64,000 nt of DNA from Anaeromyxobacter sp. Fw109-5 (lineage in GTDB: Bacteria > Myxococcota > Myxococcia > Myxococcales > Anaeromyxobacteraceae). The DNA is taken from positions 4,096,501-4,160,500 of the forward strand of contig NC_009675.1 of assembly GCF_000017505.1 (NCBI RefSeq), read 5' to 3'. Each line of letters opens with the position of its first letter. Positions within the stretch are counted from its first letter, which is position 1. The notes beneath the pieces are model-generated. The model saw nothing but the letters and a program-made list of their open reading frames with translations. It was not told the origin of the DNA and did no database searches. Below are positions 39,075-51,782 of the stretch, in pieces. The translations under genes were made by a program, and so were the position numbers.

Positions 39075-39132
39075 GCCGGTCGAGGCGCCTCCCGTCCACG
39101 AAGGACGCTCGGCGGACGCTTCGACGAAGCCG

Positions 39133-40782
39133 CTACGGCGAGGTCGCCTCGTCGAGCCCGTCCGCGGCCGCCTGCGCGCCCGGATCGGCGGGTTGCTCGT
39201 CCCAGCCCTGGAGCGAGTAGCCGGCGGGGATCGTCTCGCCGAGGCAGCGGATCTCCCGCGGCGGCGTACCGATTCCGTCGCCATCGGCGTCCGGATACAG
39301 CACGGTCCAGCGCCAGAGCGCGGTGTCGGCGTCGTCGCAATCGTTCCCCGCGGCGCTCGCGCGGTACGGTTCGGGGAGCTCGGCGCCGACGCACAAGGTC
39401 CCGCCCACGCGCGTGGTGAACCCGTCGCCGTCCTCGTCGAGGCCGGCGTAGGAGAGCTTCTGCCAGGCAGCGGGGTCGGTCGGGGCGCAGTCCGTCCCGG
39501 TGACGACGCGATCCGCCGGGAGCGCGCCCGCCGTGCAGTACCGCACCGCCGGCCCCGCGCCCACCGTGTCGTCGTCCTCGTCGGCGTAGCCCCACAGCTC
39601 GGTGTGGATCGAGGCGTCCCCGTCGTCGCAGTCGTAGGACGAGGTCGACGTCGCATAGCCCGGCGGGAGCTGCGCGCCGTAGCACACCTTCCCGCTCTGG
39701 TAGACGAAGCGCCCGTCGCCGTCCGCGTCGCGGTAGGAGTACGCGTACTCGCGCCACCTCGTCGCGTCGTCGGGAGCGCAGTCTCCCCCGGTCTCGAGGT
39801 ACCCCAGCGGCAGGGATCCCGCCGTGCAGAGCGTGAGGAGGGCACCTCCCCCGACTCTGTCCCAGTCCGAGTCCGCGTATCCGTACACGACCGCGTGCGT
39901 CCTCACGTCCGTGTCGTCGCAGTCGCCGTTCCCGCGCCAGCCCGGGCCGGTCGAGTACGGCGACGGAAGGCCGCCGCCGCCACAGAGGGAGCCGGGCTCG
40001 TAGACGCTGTAACCGTCGTAGTCGCGATCCACGTAGGAGTAGGAGAGCCACTGCCAGCGCTGACCGTCGCCCTCGGCGCAGTCGCCGCCCTGCGCGGCCC
40101 AGCCCGCCGGGAGGTGGTCCCCCGCGCAGACCTGCCCGGGCTCGCCGCCGCGACCGTCCCCATCCCCGTCGTGGAACGCCGAGGTGAAGGCGAACGCCCG
40201 CGGGTCGCCGTCGTCGCAGTCCTGTCCGCTCGGGTCCGCCGCGTAGCCCGGCGGGAGCGACTCTCCGCTGCAGACCACGCCCACGCCCTCGGTCGTGAAG
40301 CCGTCGCCGTCGGCGTCCACGTAGAGGTAGGGCAGCTCCCCCCACCGCGAGGAATCCTCCGGGGCGCAGTCCGTCGCCACGTCCGCCCAGCCGGACGGGA
40401 GCGCGTCGCCGCGGCACACCGGCGCGAGCGCGCCGCCGGCCCGCCCGTCGCCGTCCGCGTCCGGGTACCCCTCCCCCATCGTCCAGCGCCGCGCATCGTA
40501 GTCGTCGCAGTCGGTCCCATCGGCCGACCAGCCCTCCGGCAGCCGGTCTCCGGCGCAGGTCACGCCCTCGCCGGCGACGCCCCTGCCGTCGCGATCGACG
40601 TCGCGGTGAGCGCTCACTCGCCGCCACACGTTCGCGTCGAAGTCGTCGCAGTCCTCCGCGCTGACGACGCCGTCGCGATCCACGTCGACGATGGCAGGAT
40701 CCGCGACCGAGCGGCCCTCCCCGCCTCCGCAATGGAGGGCGGACGTCGCGAGCGCGGCGATGAGCCAGTGCGCGGCGCGCAT
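39133..40782 (-). CDS. MopE-like lipoprotein with ten putative metal-binding repeats
   Basis: A 549-residue protein with a lipoprotein signal (ALATSALHC). The rest consists of about ten repeats of 46-52 residues, each with a DCDD or DCAP opening, an aromatic position, a YxDxDxDGxG acidic loop and a central Cys followed by LPxGY. This is the Cu-binding MopE/putative metal-binding motif family. The acidic loops resemble Ca-binding turns and the two Cys per repeat could form a disulfide. From the third repeat DCDD and DCAx types alternate, giving a two-repeat superunit. Cell-surface metal binding or adhesion is inferred. ATG at 40782. Confidence 0.85.
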   Translation of the reverse strand: MRAAHWLIAALATSALHCGGGEGRSVADPAIVDVDRDGVVSAEDCDDFDANVWRRVSAHRDVDRDGRGVAGEGVTCAGDRLPEGWSADGTDCDDYDARRWTMGEGYPDADGDGRAGGALAPVCRGDALPSGWADVATDCAPEDSSRWGELPYLYVDADGDGFTTEGVGVVCSGESLPPGYAADPSGQDCDDGDPRAFAFTSAFHDGDGDGRGGEPGQVCAGDHLPAGWAAQGGDCAEGDGQRWQWLSYSYVDRDYDGYSVYEPGSLCGGGGLPSPYSTGPGWRGNGDCDDTDVRTHAVVYGYADSDWDRVGGGALLTLCTAGSLPLGYLETGGDCAPDDATRWREYAYSYRDADGDGRFVYQSGKVCYGAQLPPGYATSTSSYDCDDGDASIHTELWGYADEDDDTVGAGPAVRYCTAGALPADRVVTGTDCAPTDPAAWQKLSYAGLDEDGDGFTTRVGGTLCVGAELPEPYRASAAGNDCDDADTALWRWTVLYPDADGDGIGTPPREIRCLGETIPAGYSLQGWDEQPADPGAQAAADGLDEATSP

Positions 40783-40799: not shown

Positions 40800-41141
40800 C
40801 TACGGCGTGACGCGCGCGAGCTTGCACGCCGGGTACTGGTAGTAGGTGGTGCCGCCGGCGACCTCGAACCGGAACTGACCGGGCCTCGTCATCGCGAGGA
40901 GCGCCAGCCGCTGACAGGCCGCGACGTCGTCCCTCTCGCTCGAGGTCGAGCTGCTCGAGAACGTGAAGGTGACTGCCCGAGCTTCGCTCTCGCCGTCCAG
41001 AACGCCGGTGACGGTGAACAGGTTCGCTCGGATCTCCAGCGCGTCCACGGCCACGAACACGTGCCGTGGGAGGGCGGTCTGGGCCTGCGCAGTCGCGGCG
41101 ACGAGCGCGGCGGCCGCACAGGCGAGGAGAAGCCGCTTCAT
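40800..41141 (-). CDS. small secreted protein of unknown function
   Basis: A 113-residue protein with a signal peptide (RLLLACAAAALVAATAQAQ) and a mature beta-rich domain with two Cys (VAACQRL and YPACKLA), probably disulfide-linked. No family recognised. The ATG at 41141 is preceded by GAGGG. It lies 17 bases before the MopE-like gene on the same strand, so both are probably transcribed together. Confidence 0.6.
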   Translation of the reverse strand: MKRLLLACAAAALVAATAQAQTALPRHVFVAVDALEIRANLFTVTGVLDGESEARAVTFTFSSSSTSSERDDVAACQRLALLAMTRPGQFRFEVAGGTTYYQYPACKLARVTP

Positions 41142-41263: not shown

Positions 41264-42376
41264 TCACGCGCGGTCGGTGGCGCGGGCCTCGCGCCCGGCG
41301 AGCCGCAGGATTTCCCCTGGGATCTCGTCGAGCTCGAGCTCGTGCGCCGCGGCGCCGCGCTCCAGGGCCGCCCTGGGCATGCCGTAGACCACGGAGGAGG
41401 CAGCGCTCTGGGCGGCGGTGTAGCCGCCCGCGCGGCGCAGCGCCGCGAGCCCCTCGGCGCCGTCGCTCCCCATGCCCGACAGCACCATCCCCGCGCCCCG
41501 CGCCCCGAGCTCTCGGGCCACCGACGAGAACAGGTGCGTTCCGGAGGGCCGGAACCCGTGCACGGCGGGCTCGTCGGAGAGCCGGATGGTCCGGCCGCGG
41601 ACGCCGAGGTGCCGCCCGCCGGCGGCGAGGTGGACGGTCCCCGCCGCGAGCGGTGCGCCGTCGACGGCGAGCCGCACCGTGAGAGGAGTGAGGGTGTCGA
41701 GCCAGCGCGCGAGCTCCGGCTCGAACCCGGGCGCGATGTGCTGCACCACGAGCAGCGGCAGCGGCAGGTCTCGCGGCAGCGGCGCGAGGATGCTCGCGAG
41801 CGCCGCGGGCCCCCCTGTGGACGCCGCGATGGCGAGCACCTCCGGCCGCGCACCACCCGGCGGCTCCAGCCGTGCGGGGACGAGGGGCGCCGGCCGGCGC
41901 GGCTCCTCGCGACGCGGCGGCTCGCCGGCGAGCGGGGCGGGCCGGGCGGGCCGGGCGGGGCGCCTGCGCCCGACCAGCAGCAGCCCGGCGACGGCGCGCA
42001 CGGCCTGGCGGATCGCCTCCGCCTGCCGCTCGAAGCGCGGCGTGCCCGGATCGCGCGGCTTCGCCAGCACCTCGATCGCGCCGAGCTGCAGCGCTCGGAA
42101 GGAGAGCTGCTGCGCCTCCCCGCCCGCCTCGGCGCTCACCACCACCACGGGGGTCGGCGCCACGCGCATGATCTCCTCGAGCGCGGCGAGGCCGTCGAGG
42201 CGGGGCATGCGCACGTCCATGGTGACGACGTCGGGCCGGAGCGCCCGCACGAGCGACACCGCCTCGCGCCCGTCCCCCGCCTCACCCACCACCTCCACGC
42301 CGGGGGCGGAGGAGAGGATCTCGCGGAGCACCGCGCGGAAGGCGCGCGCGTCATCGACGACGAGGCAGCGGATCAT
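41264..42376 (-). CDS. cheB: chemotaxis protein-glutamate methylesterase CheB
   Basis: A 370-residue CheB. The N-terminal receiver has the phospho-acceptor Asp54 (MDVRMP). After a Pro/Arg-rich linker, the methylesterase domain shows the catalytic triad in AIAASTGGPAAL (Ser), VVQHIAPGF (His) and GMGSDGAEG (Asp). It removes methyl groups from receptors to adapt signalling. The start ATG overlaps the CheA stop by four bases. No CheR methyltransferase is in the window. Confidence 0.92.
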   Translation of the reverse strand: MIRCLVVDDARAFRAVLREILSSAPGVEVVGEAGDGREAVSLVRALRPDVVTMDVRMPRLDGLAALEEIMRVAPTPVVVVSAEAGGEAQQLSFRALQLGAIEVLAKPRDPGTPRFERQAEAIRQAVRAVAGLLLVGRRRPARPARPAPLAGEPPRREEPRRPAPLVPARLEPPGGARPEVLAIAASTGGPAALASILAPLPRDLPLPLLVVQHIAPGFEPELARWLDTLTPLTVRLAVDGAPLAAGTVHLAAGGRHLGVRGRTIRLSDEPAVHGFRPSGTHLFSSVARELGARGAGMVLSGMGSDGAEGLAALRRAGGYTAAQSAASSVVYGMPRAALERGAAAHELELDEIPGEILRLAGREARATDRA

Positions 42377-44799
42377 GCGGGGAGCAGCTGCCGGACGAGG
42401 TCCAGCAGCTTCCCGCGCTGCACGTCGCGCTTCACGAGGTAGCCGTCGGCGCCGGCGGCGAGCCCCGCGGCGCGATCCTCGGGCGCGTCCAGCGAGGTCA
42501 CGAGGACCACGGGCACGTGCGAGAGCTTCGGGTCCGCCCTCAGCCGCCGGGTCAGGCTCACTCCGTCGAGGCGCGGCATCTGGACGTCGGTCACGACGAG
42601 ATCGCAGCCGGGATCTCGGGCGAGCGCGAGCGCCTCCTCGCCGTCGGCGGCCGGGAGCACCACGAAGCCGGCGATCTCGAGGATCGCCTTCACCGCCGAG
42701 CGCGTGCCCAGCGAGTCGTCGGCGACGACGATGCGCCTCGGCGACGGCCCCTTCGCCTCCTCCGGGATCGGCGCCGTCCCCACGAGGTGCGCCGGCTGGA
42801 GCACCGCCACCACGCGGCCGTCGTCCAGCACCGCCGCGCCCGCGATGTGGGGCGCCGTGGACATCCGCCGTCCCAGCGAGCTCACCACGATGGCCTGCTC
42901 GCCGAGCACCTCGTCGACGGCCAGGGCCGCCCTTCGCCCGCCGGAGGCCACGAGCAGCGCGACGGCCGTCTCCGAGGGCCTCGCCGAGCCGCTCGCCCCG
43001 ACGACCTGCGCCAGCGGCGCGAACGGGATCTGGTCGCCGTCGACGCAGACCATCACGTGTCCGGCGACCGTCCCGAGGTCGCCCGGGCCCACGAGCAGGA
43101 CCCGCTCGATGGCGTCGGCGGAGAGGAGCGCCAGCCCGCCGCCCGCGCGGAACAGCAGGCCGGTGGTGCCTGCGATGGTGAGCGGCACGTCGATCACGAA
43201 GGACGCGCCGCGGCCGCGCTCGCTCGCGACGTCCACCCCTCCGCCCAGGCGGCGCACCGCCTCGGCGACCACGTCGAGGCCGACGCCCCGCCCCGACAGC
43301 TCCGTGATCTCGGCGGCGGTGGAGATGCCCGACCGGAAGGCGAGGCGGAGGGCGTCCGCGTCGCTCAGGCGCGCCGCCTCCGCTGCGGTCACGTCGCCGC
43401 GCTGCACGGCGGCGGCCCGCAGCCGCTCGGGCGAGAGCCCCGCGCCGTCGTCACGGACCGTGACGAGCACACGATCGCCGCGCGGCTCGACCCGCACCGC
43501 GAGGAGCGCCTCGGCCGGCTTGCCCGCCGCGCGCCGCGCCTCGGGGGGCTCGATCCCGTGATCGAGGGCGTTGCGCACGAGGTGCAGGAGCGGTCCCTTG
43601 AGCTCGTCGAGCACGCGCCGGTCGAGGCGGACCTCGCCCCCCTCGAGCCGCAGCGAGACGTGCTTGCCGAGCCGCGCGGCCACCTCCCGCACGGTGGGCC
43701 GCAGCGCCAGCAGCGCCGACTCCGCGGGGACCATGCGCAGCTCCTGCAGCGTGTCCCGCAGCGCGTGGGCCGAGAGCCGCTCGCGCTCCGCCTCGCGCCG
43801 GAGCTCGCGAGCGGCGCGGCCGACGTCCGCCGCGTGGGTGCGGATCCGGTCGACGCCCTCGTCGAGCGCGCGCGGCCGGGTCTCGTGCGGGATCCCCGCC
43901 TCGTCGAGCCCGCGCTGCACGAGCAGGAGCGCCTCGCGCAGCGCCTGCGCCATCCGCTCCAGGTCGCGCCCACGCCGCTCGCGGCGAGAGACGCCGACGA
44001 CGAGCTGGTCCACCTCGGCGGACACCGTGTCCAGGCGGCTCGCGTCCACGCGGACCACGCGGTCCTCGCCCTTCCTCGGGCGCGAGGCTCCGCCGTCCGG
44101 CGCGTCACCGCGCGGCCCGGCGACGGAGGTGGCCACCAGGGCGGCGCGGAGCTCCACCAGCTCGGCGGCCGCGCGGGCGACCGCGCGGGCGACGTCGGCG
44201 CCGTCCGCCTCCAGCTCGCCGACGCTGCGCGCCACTCGCCCCGCCAGCTCCCCCGCCCGCCCGCGCAGCGCGCCCTCCAGCCGCTCCGCGACGGCGCGCG
44301 CGCGTGCGGCGTGCGCGGCGCGCTCGGCGCCGTCGACGACGCAGATCGAGGAGAGCTCCGCGGCGAGCACGTCCAGCTCGGCGGAGCGGCCCTCGCCGGG
44401 CTCCGGCGCCAGCGGCGCGGGCGCGCGCCCGTCGCTCACGGCTGCCAGGCGGGCGAGGACCTCGGCCATGTCGGCGATCCGGCCGGGCGTGGGCGAGGTC
44501 AGCGCCTCCTCGACCGCGCGGGCCGCGCGCAGCACGGCCTCCACCGCTCCGGCGGGCAGGCCGCGGTCGCCGTCGGCGAGCACGAGCACGTCCTCGACCG
44601 CGTGGGCGGCCTGCTCGATGTCATGGAGCCCCAGGCTCGCCGCCGTCCCCTTCAAGGTGTGGGCGATGCGGCGGAGCGGCATCACCGCGTCGGGCGACGG
44701 CGCCGCCTCGAGCTCCAGCACGCCGGCGGCGAGCGCCTGAACCTGCTCGCGGGTCTCGGCCTCGAAGACGGGCCAAACGCGCTCGAGGAGATCCGACAC
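42373..44799 (-). CDS. cheA: chemotaxis histidine kinase CheA with C-terminal receiver
   Basis: An 808-residue hybrid CheA. In order: HPt with His47 (AHTLKGTAA), a long linker, dimerisation helices, an ATPase domain (VRNALDHGIE N box, RDDGAGLSPE G1, GRGVGLDVV G2), a CheW-like regulatory domain, and a receiver at about 690-806 with Asp in VTDVQMP. The added receiver is typical of FrzE/WspE-type systems. Two bases separate its start from the CheW stop, in the same operon. Confidence 0.92.
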   Translation of the reverse strand: MSDLLERVWPVFEAETREQVQALAAGVLELEAAPSPDAVMPLRRIAHTLKGTAASLGLHDIEQAAHAVEDVLVLADGDRGLPAGAVEAVLRAARAVEEALTSPTPGRIADMAEVLARLAAVSDGRAPAPLAPEPGEGRSAELDVLAAELSSICVVDGAERAAHAARARAVAERLEGALRGRAGELAGRVARSVGELEADGADVARAVARAAAELVELRAALVATSVAGPRGDAPDGGASRPRKGEDRVVRVDASRLDTVSAEVDQLVVGVSRRERRGRDLERMAQALREALLLVQRGLDEAGIPHETRPRALDEGVDRIRTHAADVGRAARELRREAERERLSAHALRDTLQELRMVPAESALLALRPTVREVAARLGKHVSLRLEGGEVRLDRRVLDELKGPLLHLVRNALDHGIEPPEARRAAGKPAEALLAVRVEPRGDRVLVTVRDDGAGLSPERLRAAAVQRGDVTAAEAARLSDADALRLAFRSGISTAAEITELSGRGVGLDVVAEAVRRLGGGVDVASERGRGASFVIDVPLTIAGTTGLLFRAGGGLALLSADAIERVLLVGPGDLGTVAGHVMVCVDGDQIPFAPLAQVVGASGSARPSETAVALLVASGGRRAALAVDEVLGEQAIVVSSLGRRMSTAPHIAGAAVLDDGRVVAVLQPAHLVGTAPIPEEAKGPSPRRIVVADDSLGTRSAVKAILEIAGFVVLPAADGEEALALARDPGCDLVVTDVQMPRLDGVSLTRRLRADPKLSHVPVVLVTSLDAPEDRAAGLAAGADGYLVKRDVQRGKLLDLVRQLLPA

Positions 44800-44801
44800 G
44801 C

Positions 44802-45317
44802 TCAGCTCCTCTCGCGCGCCGCGCCGAGGCGCGAAGGATCGAGGACGGCGCAGCGATCGGGCGTCACCCAGGCGAACGGTCCCGCCTCCGGCGCGCGCAG
44901 GTCGGAGAGCGGCACCTCGACCCGTCGGCCCACCCGCTCCACGGCGAGGCCGAACAGGTCGCCCTCGTCGTCGACCACGACCACCCGCTGCAGATCCGAG
45001 AGGCCGCCGCCCTCGAGGCCGAGCAGCGAGCGGAGATCGAGCACCGGCACCGGGCGAGTACGCCCCACGATCGCGCCGATCACCCCGCGCGGCGCGCCGA
45101 GCAGCGGGTGGACGCGGCTGGCGTCGAGGACCTGATGGACCCGGACCACCTCCACCGCGTAGCGATCTCCCGCCACCTCGAACGGCAGGATCACGCGGAC
45201 GTCCGCGCGCTCCTCCTCGCGGGCCAGCGCCAGCTCCCGGGCGCGCTCACGGAGGATCGCCTCGGAGCCCTCGTCCGTCGCGGCGGGGTCCGCCGCGCGC
45301 GTCTCCTTCGCGCTCAC
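44802..45317 (-). CDS. cheW: CheW-like coupling protein
   Basis: A 171-residue CheW. After a charged N-terminal helix (to about residue 40) the SH3-like CheW domain shows VILPFEVAGDRYAVEVVRV and RPVPVLDLRSLLGL. It couples CheA to receptors. Start GTG at 45317 overlaps the receiver gene stop by four bases; the ATG-less frame upstream is out of register with the CheW family. Confidence 0.88.
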   Translation of the reverse strand: MSAKETRAADPAATDEGSEAILRERARELALAREEERADVRVILPFEVAGDRYAVEVVRVHQVLDASRVHPLLGAPRGVIGAIVGRTRPVPVLDLRSLLGLEGGGLSDLQRVVVVDDEGDLFGLAVERVGRRVEVPLSDLRAPEAGPFAWVTPDRCAVLDPSRLGAARERS

Positions 45318-45718
45318 TGGCCCCCCTTCGCCGCCGCCACCTTCGCCGCCGTCGTCCTGGCCGCCGTCACCTTGCGGACGGCGTCCCGCAGCTGGAGCGG
45401 CGACACGGGCTTGGTCAGGAACGCGCTGGCGCCGACGAGCTCGCCACGCTGGCGCGACGCGTCGTCCCCGCGCATCGTCAGGAGCACCACCGGGATCCGG
45501 CGGAGGGCCGGATCGCTGCGCATGGCGGCGCACAGCTCGAAGCCGTCCATCACCGGCATGTTCACGTCCGAGATCACCACGTCCGGGCGGAGCTCGCGCG
45601 CCCTGGCGAGCCCCTCCGCGCCGTCGCACGCCTCCGCGAACTCCCAGCCCTGGGCGATCAGGTAGATCTGCACGAGCGAGCGGAGGGTGTGGGTGTCGTC
45701 GACGATGAGCACCTTCAT
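45314..45718 (-). CDS. single-domain response regulator (CheY-like)
   Basis: A 134-residue receiver. The acidic pocket (IVDDTHTL), phospho-acceptor Asp51 ([11 protein letters not shown]), Thr and Lys ([14 protein letters not shown]) are conserved. A C-terminal Ala/Lys extension follows the domain. It has no output domain, so it may control the motor or act as a phosphate sink. Overlaps the chemoreceptor (45715-45718) and CheW genes by four bases. Confidence 0.88.
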
Positions 45719-46908
45719 GCGCGCTCCCCGTCCCGGTAGCGCGCCGTCGCCTCGTCCAGCCGGCCGGCGAGCGCGGAGAGGCTCGCGGTGGCGCGCTCCA
45801 CGACCCGCGTCCCGGCCGTCGCCTCCTCGGAGGCGGCGGACAGGTCCGCGATCGCCGCCACGATCTGCTCGACGCCGATGCCCTGCTGCCGCGTGTTGTT
45901 GGCGATCTGGCGCGCGGACAGCGAGGAGTCGCGGATCGCGCGGGTGAGCCCGGAGATCGCCTTCGACGCCTCCGCGGCGAGCTCCATGGCGCCCTGCGCG
46001 CGGCGCGTCCCCTCCTCGGCCACGCCCATCGCCGCGTGCGTGCCCTTCTCGATCTCGGCGAGGATGCTGCGGACGTCGCCTGCCGCGGAGGTGGACTGCT
46101 CCGCCAGGTTGCCCATCTCGACCGCGACCACGGAGAAGCCGCGCCCGCGATCGCCCGCCTTGACCGCCTCGATGGAGGCGTTCAGCGCGAGGAGGTTCGT
46201 CTGCTCGGCGAGGTCCTTCAGGCCGGCCACGATCTCGCCGATGTGCCGCGACCTCCGCGCCTGGTCGGCGATGGCGCGCGAGAGCGCCTGGACCTGGCCG
46301 GCGAGGCTGCGGATGGTCTCCACGGTGCGTTCGAGCACCTGCTGCCCGTCCGCGGAGAGCTCCTCCGACCGCTGCGCGACCTCGACCACCTCCTCGGCGT
46401 GGAGCGCCGCCGCCCGCGCGGTCTGCGCGATCTCCGCCGCGGTGGTGCTCGTCTCGGCCACGGCCGCCGACTGACGGGCGGCCAGCTCGGCCTGCCGGGA
46501 CACGCCCTCGAGGAGCGCGCCCGAGTCGGCGCCGAGCTGCGCCGACGCCTTCGCCAGCTCGCCGAGCACGCCGTGCAGCGACTGGCGCAGGTCCTCGAGG
46601 TGAAGGCCCGTGCGCAGCACCTCGGCAGGGCCCTCTGCCTCGACGGGGCGGCCGAGGTCTCCTCGTGCAGCGGCCCGGGCCGCCTCCGCGAGGCGCTCCG
46701 CCGGCCGCGCGAGGAGCGTGGCGGCGCCGAACACCGCCGCGCCCGCGAGCGCGAGGGCGAGGACGAGGGCTCCGCCCCCGCCCGCGAGCCGGGACGCCGC
46801 CACGCCCGCGGCGAGGCCCGACGAGCCGACGAGCAGGATGCCCCAGCGCAGCGAAAGCCCAGGCCGCGGGCGGCGTGGATGTCCAGTCGGACTCTCCGTC
46901 CGGTTCAC
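45715..46908 (-). CDS. chemoreceptor (MCP) without large periplasmic domain
   Basis: A 397-residue chemoreceptor. Two adjacent hydrophobic segments (about residues 20-65) with only a short loop replace a ligand domain. A HAMP-like region and a long coiled coil follow; the kinase-binding hairpin tip is [15 protein letters not shown], in which the usual Arg of the tip is Lys. The start is GTG 46908, with GGAGGT before it; it overlaps the receiver gene by four bases. It may sense cytoplasmic or membrane signals. Confidence 0.85.
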
Positions 46909-46955
46909 TCCGAGACCTCCATGCCTGGGACGGGACGCGTCCGCGGGTGACGGGA

Positions 46956-47522
46956 TCAAGACGTCTCCAGCACTTCGCGCTCCAGCAGCTCCGGAGCGAG
47001 GACCGGCACGGCCTCGTCCTCCACCGTGCAGGCCCCGAGGAGGAGGCGCGACGCGGCGCCCTCCTCGGCGCCACCGTCGGCGAGGACGGGGTCCTCGGCG
47101 AGGCCGAGGACGTCGTCGATGACCAGCGCCACGGTGGGCGCCCCGTCGAGGATCGCCATCATCGCATCGCGAGAGCGCACCGGCGCCCGGCCGAGCCGCT
47201 CGCCGAGGTCGACCGCGAGCGCGGGGCGGCCTCGCCATACGAAGCTCCCCAGCGTCCAGGACGCCGCACCAGGGACGCGGTCGACGGCGACCCGCCGGGC
47301 GAGCTCGGCGATGCGCGCGGCCGGGAGGAGCAACCTCCCGCCCGCGACGGCGGCGATGACGTACACCCCGGGCAGCCGCTCTCCCGGGCCGAGCGCCACG
47401 AGCCCCGCGCGAAGGCGCTGATACTCACGCTCGATCGCGCGGAGCTCCCGCAGGAGCGAGCGGCGCTGCGCGCCGGCCTCGCTCGTGTCGCCCGCTCCAG
47501 GCCTCGTACTCATGGTGCTCAT
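46956..47522 (-). CDS. CheW-like coupling protein, first of two
   Basis: A 188-residue CheW-domain protein with a coiled-coil N-terminal part (about 20-45: [15 protein letters not shown]), then the CheW fold ([49 protein letters not shown]). It is more divergent than the second CheW gene. ATG 47522 and 47513 are both in frame. It lies 47 bases before the chemoreceptor gene and 29 after the PhnD-like gene. Confidence 0.8.
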
Positions 47523-47551
47523 GGGTCTCGCGGCCCGGTTCGGGGCGCCGC

Positions 47552-48421
47552 TCACTTCGCGGTGATCGCCTTCGTCACGCGGAGGAGCTCGTCGCGCGCG
47601 TGGCGGACGTCGTCCCAGTCCGACGGCTTCGCGGCCTCGAACCCGGTCTTCATGTTGAGCGCCTCGAGCATGCGCTGGTTGGCCGGGTCCTTCGCGAACG
47701 AGGCGAGCGCCTTCTGGACCTTGGCGACCGCGTCCGCCGGCACGTCCTTGCGCGCGGCGAACGGCAGCGGCGAGTACGCCTTGGTGGTGTAGAGCACGCG
47801 GAGCTTGGAGCGCGTCTCCTTGGGGAGGAGCTCGAAGGTCCGCGTCAGGCCGCCGGAGGCCACGGCCTTGCCCTGCAGGACCGCCTGGTAGCCCGCCTCG
47901 TGCGAGCCCGCCACGACGACCTTGAAGTCCTTCTGGAGCTCCAGCCCGCCCTCCTTCTGGATGGCGAAGAGCGGGAGCACGGCGGCGCCGAACGAGCCGG
48001 CGCTCGGGATCGCGACGGTCGCGCCCTTCAGGTCCGCGAGCTTGGAGAGCTTGCTGTCCTTGGCGACCACGAGCACGCCCACCGTCTTGGCGCCGACCTC
48101 GCGCGCGAACGCGCTGTACTGATCGTCCTGCTGAACGTAGGCGAGGGTGTTGTGGTAGTAGAACGCGTACGCTCCCGCCTTCGCCCGGGTCCCGAACTCC
48201 GAGATGCTGGGGGCGGTCACGAAGCGCAGCTTCACGCCCGACATCTCGCTCACCTTGTCGAGGAACGGCACCCACTGCTCCGCGACCTTCGCCGTCGCGA
48301 CCTGGGGGAGGACCCCGAAGTCGTAGACGGTCTCCTCCGCGCGGGCGGTGCGGGCCGTCGCCACGACGCCCGCGAGCAGCGCCGCGGTCGCGGCGACGAG
48401 AGCCCTCTTCTTCCGAACCAT
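47552..48421 (-). CDS. PhnD-like periplasmic binding protein
   Basis: A 289-residue exported binding protein of the PhnD/phosphate-phosphite-phosphonate family. A signal peptide (ALVAATAALLAGVVATARTARA) precedes a two-lobe domain starting YDFGVLPQVATAKVAEQWVP, with ATVAIPSAGSFGAAVLPLFA in the second part. No ABC permease or ATPase gene is near; instead it lies inside a chemosensory operon, 16 bases after a chemoreceptor gene. AAGGAAG before ATG 48421. Ligand not known. Confidence 0.8.
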   Translation of the reverse strand: MVRKKRALVAATAALLAGVVATARTARAEETVYDFGVLPQVATAKVAEQWVPFLDKVSEMSGVKLRFVTAPSISEFGTRAKAGAYAFYYHNTLAYVQQDDQYSAFAREVGAKTVGVLVVAKDSKLSKLADLKGATVAIPSAGSFGAAVLPLFAIQKEGGLELQKDFKVVVAGSHEAGYQAVLQGKAVASGGLTRTFELLPKETRSKLRVLYTTKAYSPLPFAARKDVPADAVAKVQKALASFAKDPANQRMLEALNMKTGFEAAKPSDWDDVRHARDELLRVTKAITAK

Positions 48422-48437
48422 GTCGTCTTCCTTTCGT

Positions 48438-50144
48438 TCAGTTGCGGTAGCGCTGCACGAGGTCGGTGAGCCGGCCGGAGACGGCCTTGAGCCGCTCCGC
48501 CGCCCGCCTCGTCTCCTCACTCCCAGCCACGTTCCCCTCGGCGGCCTGCGCGAGCTGCGCGAGCGCGCCGACGATCTCGTTCACGCCCCCGGCCTGCTGT
48601 CGTGAGCTCTCCGCGATCTGCCGCGCCGCGCCGGCGGACTCGCGGCAGACGTTCGCGAGGTTCCCGATGGTCTCCCCCGCGCGCCGCGCCAGCGCCGCGG
48701 TGGAGCGGGCCTTGTCGCTGCCCTGCTGCGTGGCGGCGGAGGCGGACTCGCTGGCCTCCGCGATCTCGCCCAGGAGCTTCGGCACCTCGCCGGCGGTGGC
48801 GCTGGACTGCTCGGCCAGCGTCCGCATCTCGCGGGCGATGACCGAGAAGCTCGCGCCGGTCTCTCCGGTTCGCGCCGCCTGGATGGCGGCGTTCAGCGCC
48901 AGCACGTTCGAGCGGAGGGCGAGGTCCTTGACCTTGCCGATGATGTCGCCGATCTCCCCGACCCGCGTCGAGAGCGCGCCGAGCCGGTCGGCGATGCCGG
49001 AGACGTGCTGCTCGACCTGGTTCGTGCTCCCCACCGCCTCCTCGACGATCCCCTCGCCGGCGCGCGACGACTCCTCGGCCGTCTGCGTGACGGCGATCAC
49101 CCGGTCGGCCTGCTCGATGGCGGCGGTCGAGGTCTGCGCGATCTCCTGCGTCGAGGCGTTCATCTCGGCGACGGCGGCCGACTGCTGCGCGGCCATGGCC
49201 GCCTGCCGCGTGGCGGCGCCCAGCATGGCGTCGGACTCCTGCGCCAGCACCGCGGAGGCCTCCTTGAGCTCGCGGAGCATGGCCTGGAGGCCCTCGACCA
49301 TCCGTCCGAAGCTGCGGGCGAGGTCGGCGACCTCGTCTCTCCCGTTGCGCGCCACGTCCTGCCGCAGGTCTCCCTGCGCGATCCCGAGCGCCGCGCGGGA
49401 GAGGTCCGAGAGCGGCCTCGTGGTGAAGCGCGCGATGGGGAAGATCGCGACGAGGCAGCCGATCAGGACCACGAGCGCGAGCCCCCCCGATCTGCGGGTC
49501 GCGGTGGCGATCTGGCTCCGCAGGTCCGCGTAGGCGAACCCGAGCTCCACCGAGCCGAGCACCTTCACCCCGGAGTCCCCGGCCGCGCCGGCGCCCAGGC
49601 CCTCCTCGAGCCCGAGGGGATCGAGGTACTGCGCGTCGGACTTGCTCTTGAACGTCACGAGCGCGACGACGTGCAGCATCTCCTTGCCGCCCACGTCCAG
49701 CGTGCGTTCGAGGAGGCGGCTCCCGAGATCGAGCTCCTCCACCCTGGTCGGGGTGGGACGCGCCGGGCCGAGTCCCTCCTTCACCGCCTCGGCGAGCGCC
49801 CGGCCGCGCTCGTCGCGGACGATGACGTACGCGGCGCCGGGCACGTCCGCGAGCGTCGCCGCCGTGAGGGCCTCGAGCCCCGTCACGTCCTGCGCGAAGA
49901 TGAAGTTCGCGGAGGTGTTCGCGACGGTCAGGGTCGCGAGGCGCCCGCGGCTGGTGAGCTCCTGCTCGAGCAGCTTCTCCACCTCGTGCCCGAAGGAGAG
50001 CGCGAGGATGATCGCCACGAGCGCGGTGGAGACCCCGGCGATCGCCACGATCTTGAGGCTGAGCCCGAACCGCGCCTTCCCGGCGCCCGCCTCGAGCCTC
50101 CGGCGAGGAGCATCGCGCCCCGACGTGCTCGCCTCTGTCTGCAT
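48438..50144 (-). CDS. chemoreceptor (MCP) with periplasmic ligand domain
   Basis: A 568-residue chemoreceptor with two membrane helices (about 28-52 and 220-243) bounding a periplasmic domain of about 165 residues, then HAMP (about 243-295) and a coiled coil with a kinase-binding hairpin tip LALNAAIQAARTGE. The usual Glu in the tip is Gln. The next gene in the operon encodes a PhnD-like binding protein. ATG 50144 has AGAGGTGG six bases upstream; GTG 50153 is also in frame. Confidence 0.88.
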   Translation of the reverse strand: MQTEASTSGRDAPRRRLEAGAGKARFGLSLKIVAIAGVSTALVAIILALSFGHEVEKLLEQELTSRGRLATLTVANTSANFIFAQDVTGLEALTAATLADVPGAAYVIVRDERGRALAEAVKEGLGPARPTPTRVEELDLGSRLLERTLDVGGKEMLHVVALVTFKSKSDAQYLDPLGLEEGLGAGAAGDSGVKVLGSVELGFAYADLRSQIATATRRSGGLALVVLIGCLVAIFPIARFTTRPLSDLSRAALGIAQGDLRQDVARNGRDEVADLARSFGRMVEGLQAMLRELKEASAVLAQESDAMLGAATRQAAMAAQQSAAVAEMNASTQEIAQTSTAAIEQADRVIAVTQTAEESSRAGEGIVEEAVGSTNQVEQHVSGIADRLGALSTRVGEIGDIIGKVKDLALRSNVLALNAAIQAARTGETGASFSVIAREMRTLAEQSSATAGEVPKLLGEIAEASESASAATQQGSDKARSTAALARRAGETIGNLANVCRESAGAARQIAESSRQQAGGVNEIVGALAQLAQAAEGNVAGSEETRRAAERLKAVSGRLTDLVQRYRN

Positions 50145-50465: not shown

Positions 50466-51782
50466 ATGAAAGCTCGCATCACGCGCCTGCGCACCGCGGC
50501 CACCGCGCTCGTCGCCTGCGCCCTCGCCCTCCCGGCGCAGAGCGCGCTCGCGAAGGACATCTACTTCCGCAGCTTCTCGTCCGCCGAGGCGATGGGGCCG
50601 CCCGCGGAGGAGTTCGGCGCCAAGCTCCAGAGCATCACGAACCTGACGCTGGGGCCCTCCGGCGAGGTGCGGTTCGTGAAGCTGCCGGGGATCCCCGCCA
50701 TCCCCTCGGTGTTCAAGGGCGACATCGTCGCGGCCGTCGGGGCCGGCGCCGCGGGCGGCGGCTTCGACGCCGCGTACAACTCGGGCAGCGAGCTCAACAA
50801 GGCCTGGGGCTTCCTCTTCAACTCGGGCGTTCCCTTCGGCCCCGGCTTCGACGAGTACCTGGGCTTCCTCTTCGGAAGGTCCGTCGACGACGGGCAGCGG
50901 ACGGGGCTCGAGCTCGCGCAGTCCATCCTCGACCTGAACAACAGGAACGTCGTGGTCGTCCCCATCGTCGGCAACGCCGAGCAGCTGTCGGGCTACTTCT
51001 TCGAGCCGATCGGCGACGCCGGCAGCACGAAGGGCATCGGCCTCGCGGGCCTGTGCCAGCGCAACTGGACGTTCCGCTACCTCCCCCCCGGCGAGTACAC
51101 GCTCAACCGCGCCTGCGACGACCTCGTCTCCAGCGGCGTCATCCCCGCGAAGAACCTCAAGTTCATCGCCCCGATCCCGGGCGGCGGCTCGCTCGTGGAC
51201 GCGGTGAAGAACGGCTACCTGCAGGGCTTCGAGTTCGCCACGCCGCTCGACGACGTCTCGTCCCTCTTCAACACCGCCGACAACCCGGGCACGGTGGGCG
51301 TCCGCTACGTCCACTTCCCGGGCTGGCAGCAGCAGTTCCTCATCACCTGGATGATCATCAACAAGCAGGTGTGGGACTCGATGAGCCTGGCGCAGCAGAC
51401 GCTCACCTACAGCGTGGCGCGCGATCACGTGCTCTCGTCGTACGGCGAGAACATGCGGCGGCAGGGGGCGGCCCTGAAGTACATCCTCGAGGTGAACCGC
51501 TTCGACGCCGACCCGAACAACGACCTCGTGCTCGTCGAGTGGCCCAAGAAGGACCAGGAGCTGATGATCGCGTCGTCGATCCGCATGCTCAACGACCGGG
51601 TCTACGACGCGACGCTCCCCGCCACGGATCGCCGCGACTACAAGACGATCCTCGAGGCGCTCCGCAAGTACGTCGAGTCGAACGACATCTACTGGGACGA
51701 TCGCAAGGTCGGCTCGAAGGTGCGCTTCAAGAACTGGACGGACGAGCTCGGGCAGTCGTGGGAGACGGCGCTCGTGAAGTGA
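50466..51782 (+). CDS. TRAP-type (DctP-like) periplasmic binding protein
   Basis: A 438-residue exported protein. A signal peptide (about 26 residues, ending QSALA) precedes a DctP-type domain (KDIYFRSFSSAEAMGPPAEE, LQGFEFATPLDDVSSLFNTA, VHFPGWQQQFLITWMIINK). It is longer than most DctP proteins (about 330). No DctQ/DctM permease genes follow, and it is divergent from the chemosensory operon. It may act in sensing or with a distant permease. ATG 50466. Confidence 0.8.
   Translation: MKARITRLRTAATALVACALALPAQSALAKDIYFRSFSSAEAMGPPAEEFGAKLQSITNLTLGPSGEVRFVKLPGIPAIPSVFKGDIVAAVGAGAAGGGFDAAYNSGSELNKAWGFLFNSGVPFGPGFDEYLGFLFGRSVDDGQRTGLELAQSILDLNNRNVVVVPIVGNAEQLSGYFFEPIGDAGSTKGIGLAGLCQRNWTFRYLPPGEYTLNRACDDLVSSGVIPAKNLKFIAPIPGGGSLVDAVKNGYLQGFEFATPLDDVSSLFNTADNPGTVGVRYVHFPGWQQQFLITWMIINKQVWDSMSLAQQTLTYSVARDHVLSSYGENMRRQGAALKYILEVNRFDADPNNDLVLVEWPKKDQELMIASSIRMLNDRVYDATLPATDRRDYKTILEALRKYVESNDIYWDDRKVGSKVRFKNWTDELGQSWETALVK

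Follow-up and report, generated by a model that had tools for sequence, protein, structure and literature searches.

In the 64-kb window analyzed here, that is, the whole stretch of the Anaeromyxobacter sp. Fw109-5 genome (a single 5,277,990-base contig) that was investigated, eight chemosensory genes of this soil myxobacterium lie on the minus strand between positions 41264 and 50144. ORF positions and Pfam matches confirmed the gene order proposed in the first-pass annotation. The spacing it described, with most genes overlapping or 2-47 bases apart, was also recovered: the successive gaps from MCP1 to CheB are 16, 29, 47, -4, -4, 2, and -4 bases, all overlaps being of 4 bases. A possible ninth gene is found 122 bases after CheB. 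Read along the minus strand, the genes are:

48438..50144 (-): MCP1, a chemoreceptor with TM1, periplasmic single-Cache domain, TM2, HAMP, and MCP signalling domain (Pfam MCPsignal 1.5e-27, HAMP 2e-11)
47552..48421 (-): periplasmic PhnD-like binding protein of the sensory lineage, carrying a Sec-type signal peptide (PF12974, Phosphonate-bd, 9.4e-52; tree)
46956..47522 (-): CheW1, counterpart of CheW4b (PF01584 3.8e-12; position and similarity in homologous operons)
45715..46908 (-): MCP2, with a transmembrane hairpin, no periplasmic domain, a normal tip, and a GTG start (PF00015 4.9e-30, MCPsignal and HAMP; transmembrane scan; tip alignment)
45314..45718 (-): CheY (PF00072, Response_reg, 4.3e-26; phospho-acceptor motif ISDVNMP)
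44802..45317 (-): CheW2, counterpart of CheW4a, GTG start (PF01584 8e-19; homologous operons)
42373..44799 (-): CheA-REC hybrid kinase of the Che4 group, GTG start (Pfam Hpt, HATPase_c, CheW, REC; tree)
41264..42376 (-): CheB with receiver and esterase motifs intact (REC; PF01339, CheB_methylest, 3.7e-57)
40800..41141 (-): small secreted protein, kept in both relatives that carry the operon, with no family match in Pfam or NCBIfam

Sequence inspection found catalytic motifs of CheA, CheB, and CheY. No terminator-like site was found between the eight genes, the only two matches being inside MCP1 and upstream of it, while scans for sigma-54 and sigma-70 promoters gave nothing convincing. Searches of the 64-kb window for Rfam families and tRNAs found none.

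Two other species (G017 and G020) retain the complete operon together with its flanks, their CheA, MCP1, and PhnD proteins being ~78-88% identical to those encoded here. Judging by this conservation, the eight-gene arrangement is not the product of chance. The remaining Anaeromyxobacter genomes examined yielded no ortholog of MCP1 or of the PhnD-like protein. The conserved flanks comprise a divergent gene similar to a solute-binding protein (SBP), a TetR gene, a repeat lipoprotein, and the small secreted protein. The divergent gene (50466-51779, +) encodes a secreted protein resembling TRAP-type DctP binding proteins by eye, with no Pfam, NCBIfam, or PDB family match, and is possibly a second binding protein. 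The lipoprotein-like gene (~39130-40730, -), which follows the operon in G017 and G020 as well, consists of repeated DADGDG/DCDD motifs of calcium-binding type.

A Che4-type operon and a receptor-less sister cluster

The kinase was initially described as WspE/FrzE-like. This label has to be adjusted, since gene order and the CheA tree place both kinase and operon in the myxobacterial Che4 group. According to Pfam, the operon has neither a diguanylate cyclase gene of WspR type nor genes of FrzZ/FrzF type: GGDEF and CheR-TPR are both lacking, and its only receivers are the single-domain CheY, CheA-REC, and CheB. Homologous myxobacterial clusters have the order CheW-CheR-MCP-CheY-CheW-CheA-REC, some adding CheB, and match in order and size range the M. 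xanthus che4 operon (MXAN_2681-2686), which encodes CheW4b, CheR4, Mcp4, CheY4, CheW4a, and CheA4 (PMC3945109). The CheA tree groups the window kinase with the Che4 homologs in one clade (97/99), apart from the other CheAs of the genome, although on a long branch and with no settled place inside the clade.

Apart from the absent CheR, the gene order of the operon is that of Che4. It shares with M. xanthus Che4 the CheW-MCP-CheY-CheW-CheA-REC order, the two CheWs, the hybrid CheA, the sensor-domain type, and the CheA clade. It differs in that CheR is gone from between CheW and MCP, CheB was added, and a second receptor and the PhnD-like protein are present, the MCP1-PhnD pair being placed upstream. 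In addition, the usual Che4 operon has a single MCP that includes a periplasmic domain; MCP2 spans the membrane with a hairpin alone and lacks a sensor domain. Since CheR is absent, the operon is a rearranged Che4-type relative rather than a standard Che4 operon.

The claim that CheR is missing is right for the operon, in all three genomes, but only locally. A genome search for cheR outside the operon, as recommended in the first-pass annotation, found six CheR genes, one of them in a second Che4-type cluster. This cluster II, at ~526-533 kb, has the order CheW-CheR(TPR)-CheY-CheW-CheA-CheB (its CheR being L004/L062) and no MCP: none of the twelve MCP matches of the genome falls there. The same receptor-less cluster is complete in G017 (L117) and lies across contig ends in G020 (L118, plus CheR on C27). 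In the CheA tree, cluster II falls together with the one Che4-type cluster that a neighbouring genus has (97/99). The Che4-type clusters L119 and L120 of a neighbouring genus (G034 and G035) are also devoid of MCPs and contain two CheR-like genes.

Exactly three Anaeromyxobacter genomes contain both cluster I (the window operon) and cluster II; at comparable identity, neither cluster turned up in other members of the genus. An orphan MCP of the same receptor class, with only a transmembrane hairpin, is located at 2.780 Mb (L121). G017 and G020 have orthologs of this MCP, which is the likely partner of cluster II. It is also the closest relative of Mcp4 in its own genome. From their gene content, the two clusters look like complementary halves, one with receptors and no CheR, the other with CheR and no receptors. 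Because they co-occur in exactly these three genomes, we infer that CheR is probably supplied in trans by cluster II. Sharing across clusters is plausible given that in M. xanthus the receptors and CheWs of Che4, Che5, and Che6 are shared by two-hybrid, the three systems acting genetically as one module (PMC3945109).

Another explanation is that the operon has no methylation adaptation at all, with CheB being a relic or independent of CheR, and cluster II working on its own. The lack of CheR in the operons of all three species could be read in this way, and M. xanthus che4 offers a mirror case, with CheR4 present and no CheB4 listed. On the other hand, the receiver and esterase motifs of CheB are present, so that the first-pass annotation rightly called CheB intact, and a Che4-type CheR is found in the sister cluster of the same three genomes, a cluster otherwise without a receptor. 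We therefore consider the loss of methylation unlikely and supply in trans the better reading.

The PhnD-like protein and the sensor domain of MCP1

As first reported, no ABC transporter accompanies the binding protein: the 64-kb window has no ABC ATPase or permease, and the nearest PF00528 permease is at 4.516 Mb, ~370 kb from the PhnD gene at 4.144 Mb. The protein matches PF12974 strongly, but against the PhnD equivalog model it scores well under the cutoff. A tree built from 32 PhnD-like proteins recovered a sensory clade of ten rows (90/81), with a core of seven (95/94). None of the ten has a permease neighbour and all adjoin a gene for a transmembrane signal transducer, either a chemoreceptor, a histidine kinase, or a cyclase; permease-linked PhnDs form a separate clade. 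The comparison of permease and receptor neighbours in related genomes, suggested beforehand, thus favoured the receptor, since the closest relatives never adjoin permeases and always transmembrane transducers. In an Archangium MAG, the relative (43%) follows two MCP genes and precedes CheY, CheW, CheR, CheA-REC, and CheB genes. The gene of the Kiloniellaceae MAG relative (36%) overlaps a histidine kinase gene, that of G187 (34%) touches a class III cyclase gene, and that of G029 (30%) adjoins a hybrid kinase gene. Vibrio and Salinivibrio plasmids carry 35% relatives; in both of the plasmid records examined, a histidine kinase gene begins 3-9 bases downstream.

Two sites distinguish this lineage in alignments:

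47984..48007 (-): PSAGSFGA loop in place of the STSG phosphonate-binding loop (alignment with E. coli PhnD 3p7i, PtxB, and permease-linked PhnDs)
47834..47854 (-): GGLTRTF, with the lineage signature GGxxRTF (G190, G191, R194, T195, and F196 invariant)

The STSG loop is kept in E. coli PhnD and the aligned permease-linked proteins, with STSS in PtxB, while GGxxRTF is invariant in the five closest relatives. With the pocket changed in this way, a simple phosphonate is an unlikely ligand, and neither of the marks of a phosphonate-importer PhnD, an adjoining PhnE/PhnC or the STSG loop, is present. The sterol-binding BstB is a precedent for a PhnD-fold protein with a different ligand (PMC10942540). 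Structure prediction for the PhnD-like protein, based on an alignment of 4 rows, did not give a usable model (mean pLDDT 46).

The protein could still serve a distant ABC importer and couple uptake with sensing, as the maltose-binding protein does. Such coupling is known in other SBP-receptor systems, and a genuine phn transporter is encoded at 3.517 Mb in the genome. However, this transporter has its own PhnD (L037 in the tree), the window protein belongs to a different clade and no longer has the STSG loop, and ~370 kb separate it from the nearest permease, which leaves this explanation very improbable.

Other PhnD-like genes and domains are also associated with signalling proteins. One such gene, beside an MCP in G082 (L027), was dropped as support, since it belongs to the permease-linked clade, has STSG intact, and accompanies a four-helix-bundle receptor. 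In G016 and G015 (Anaeromyxobacter; L018 and L019), more distant PhnD-like genes directly precede MCP genes with the same sensor-domain type. In other myxobacteria, a PhnD-like domain is found at the C-terminus of Ser/Thr protein kinases (L021, L034, and L041; L029 partly). The PhnD-like genes L031 and L040 overlap genes of GGDEF proteins with a single-Cache domain and belong to a separate clade with STTG in the loop.

Transmembrane peaks of MCP1 were found at residues 32-50 and 220-238, and its periplasmic domain has a predicted Cache fold:

49479..49994 (-): periplasmic sensor domain of MCP1, predicted CitA/DcuS-like Cache fold (AlphaFold2 mean pLDDT 79; VIA-align Z 14.8 to CitA 2j80; weak sCache_3_2)

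A PDB sequence search with this domain found no relative, while the fold search did. A profile of the MCP1/Mcp4 sensor domain matches the sensor domains of most PhnD partners (single-comparison E-values from 1.3e-9 to 3.5e-4, with 2.6e-6 for Vibrio), eight control receptors giving 0.15 or worse. The sensor domain of the G187 cyclase has no profile match (E 0.64). In G139, an unrelated SBP (PF04392, ABC_sub_bind; L088:11263-12165, -) is located between CheR and MCP of a Che4 operon that is standard in other respects. This suggests a tendency of such receptors to gain SBP partners.

Alternatively, MCP1 could sense a small ligand directly in the Cache pocket, like CitA/DcuS, with the PhnD-like protein as a co-transcribed bystander or scavenger. 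The predicted domain is indeed closest to directly ligand-binding Cache domains, and the operons of most Mcp4 homologs that share this domain lack an SBP gene. The pairing of this PhnD lineage with transducers nevertheless recurs across several phyla or classes, with varied outputs and no permease, and we regard direct sensing as rather improbable. The original idea of a binding protein that acts as sensor for the adjoining receptor gains good comparative support from this pairing, while ligand binding and contact remain predicted.

Signalling tips and output

The tip of MCP1 is degenerate when aligned with MCP2, the orphan MCP, and Mcp4 homologs:

48846..48923 (-): signalling tip of MCP1, LALRSNVLALNAAIQAARTGETGASF, with Gln for Glu at Tsr 385 and GASF for GRGF

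All three MCP1 orthologs have Gln at the position of Tsr E385 and GASF, while all the other aligned receptors have Glu and GRGF or GKGF. In trimers of dimers, E385 and R388 form an ionic lock (PMC8144572). The Arg is retained in MCP1, and MCP2 combines Glu with Lys; hypothetically, a trimer of both receptors could therefore restore the lock. The transmembrane scan found a periplasmic domain in MCP1 but only a transmembrane hairpin in the orphan MCP and in MCP2; on the lack of a periplasmic domain in MCP2 the first-pass annotation was silent. That MCP1, alone in its receptor class, keeps the periplasmic domain and has a degenerate tip suggests that it works together with MCP2. A recent origin of MCP1 by duplication of MCP2 within the operon found no support, since the signalling domains are 39% identical and the branches are long and separate.

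None of the three operon-bearing genomes has flagellin, whereas the congeneric G013 and G014 do; PilT is present in all five. The output is not a flagellum. In M. xanthus, deletion of cheA4 affects S-motility (PMC3945109), and homology with this Che4 system makes control of type IV pili or other surface motility the most likely output.

Proposed mechanism and relation to known systems

We suggest that the PhnD-like protein works in the periplasm as a dedicated sensor subunit, which would bind a small ligand and dock on the Cache-like periplasmic domain of MCP1. Docking would alter CheA activity through the CheWs. In this scheme MCP1 may be the antenna and MCP2 the kinase coupler, probably in mixed trimers, because the tip is weakened in MCP1 and normal in MCP2, and MCP2 is without a sensor domain. 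CheA-REC would phosphorylate CheY, CheB, and its own receiver, methylation would be completed in trans by the CheR of the receptor-less sister cluster, and type IV pili or other surface motility would be the presumed end output in these bacteria without flagellin. This reading as a whole, a Che4-type operon with a dedicated sensor subunit for MCP1, MCP1/MCP2 cooperation, CheR in trans, and surface-motility output, seems to us reasonably probable. It draws on gene content, phylogeny, cluster co-occurrence, sensor-domain similarity, the changed pocket and tip, and the lack of flagellin. Counting against it are the directly binding Cache type of the MCP1 fold, the Mcp4 homologs mostly devoid of an SBP, the unmatched G187 domain, the long branch of the window CheA in the Che4 group, and the restriction of the cluster pair to three genomes.

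Receptors activated by SBPs include NspS-MbaA and the maltose-binding protein with Tar. As in these and in LuxP-LuxQ, a binding protein is encoded here with a transmembrane receptor having a Cache/PAS-like periplasmic domain, and LuxQ was among the matches in the fold search with the MCP1 domain. The SBP gene lies beside the receptor gene, without transporter genes, and this is conserved in relatives. The operon differs from LuxP, PotD, and maltose-binding protein systems in the PhnD family of the SBP, in the Che4-type array as output, and in that docking is predicted. The tetrathionate kinase TtrS also uses a PhnD-like fold in sensing, and a weak match to its model was found; in TtrS, however, the PhnD-like domain is fused to the kinase, while here a separate soluble protein is paired with a receptor. 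SBP-activated receptors as such are already known, and what is new is a PhnD lineage within a split Che4-type system.

A wider proposal, which we hold only tentatively, is that the PhnD lineage marked by the lost STSG loop and by GGxxRTF is a distinct one that serves as a sensor subunit free of any transporter. It would accompany a single type of Cache receptor domain and feed into chemoreceptors, histidine kinases, and cyclases of Myxococcota, Alphaproteobacteria, and Gammaproteobacteria. In Anaeromyxobacter it would drive a split chemosensory pair, with a receptor cluster and a receptor-less CheR cluster, and with MCP1 and MCP2 sharing out sensing and kinase coupling between them. Most SBP-triggered receptors have become known singly. 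If true, a binding-protein lineage that left transport and kept to one receptor-domain type with several outputs would provide a clean system for mapping docking and swapping sensors. The receptor-less CheR cluster beside the CheR-less receptor cluster makes the cross-cluster sharing suggested for Che4, Che5, and Che6 of M. xanthus directly testable.
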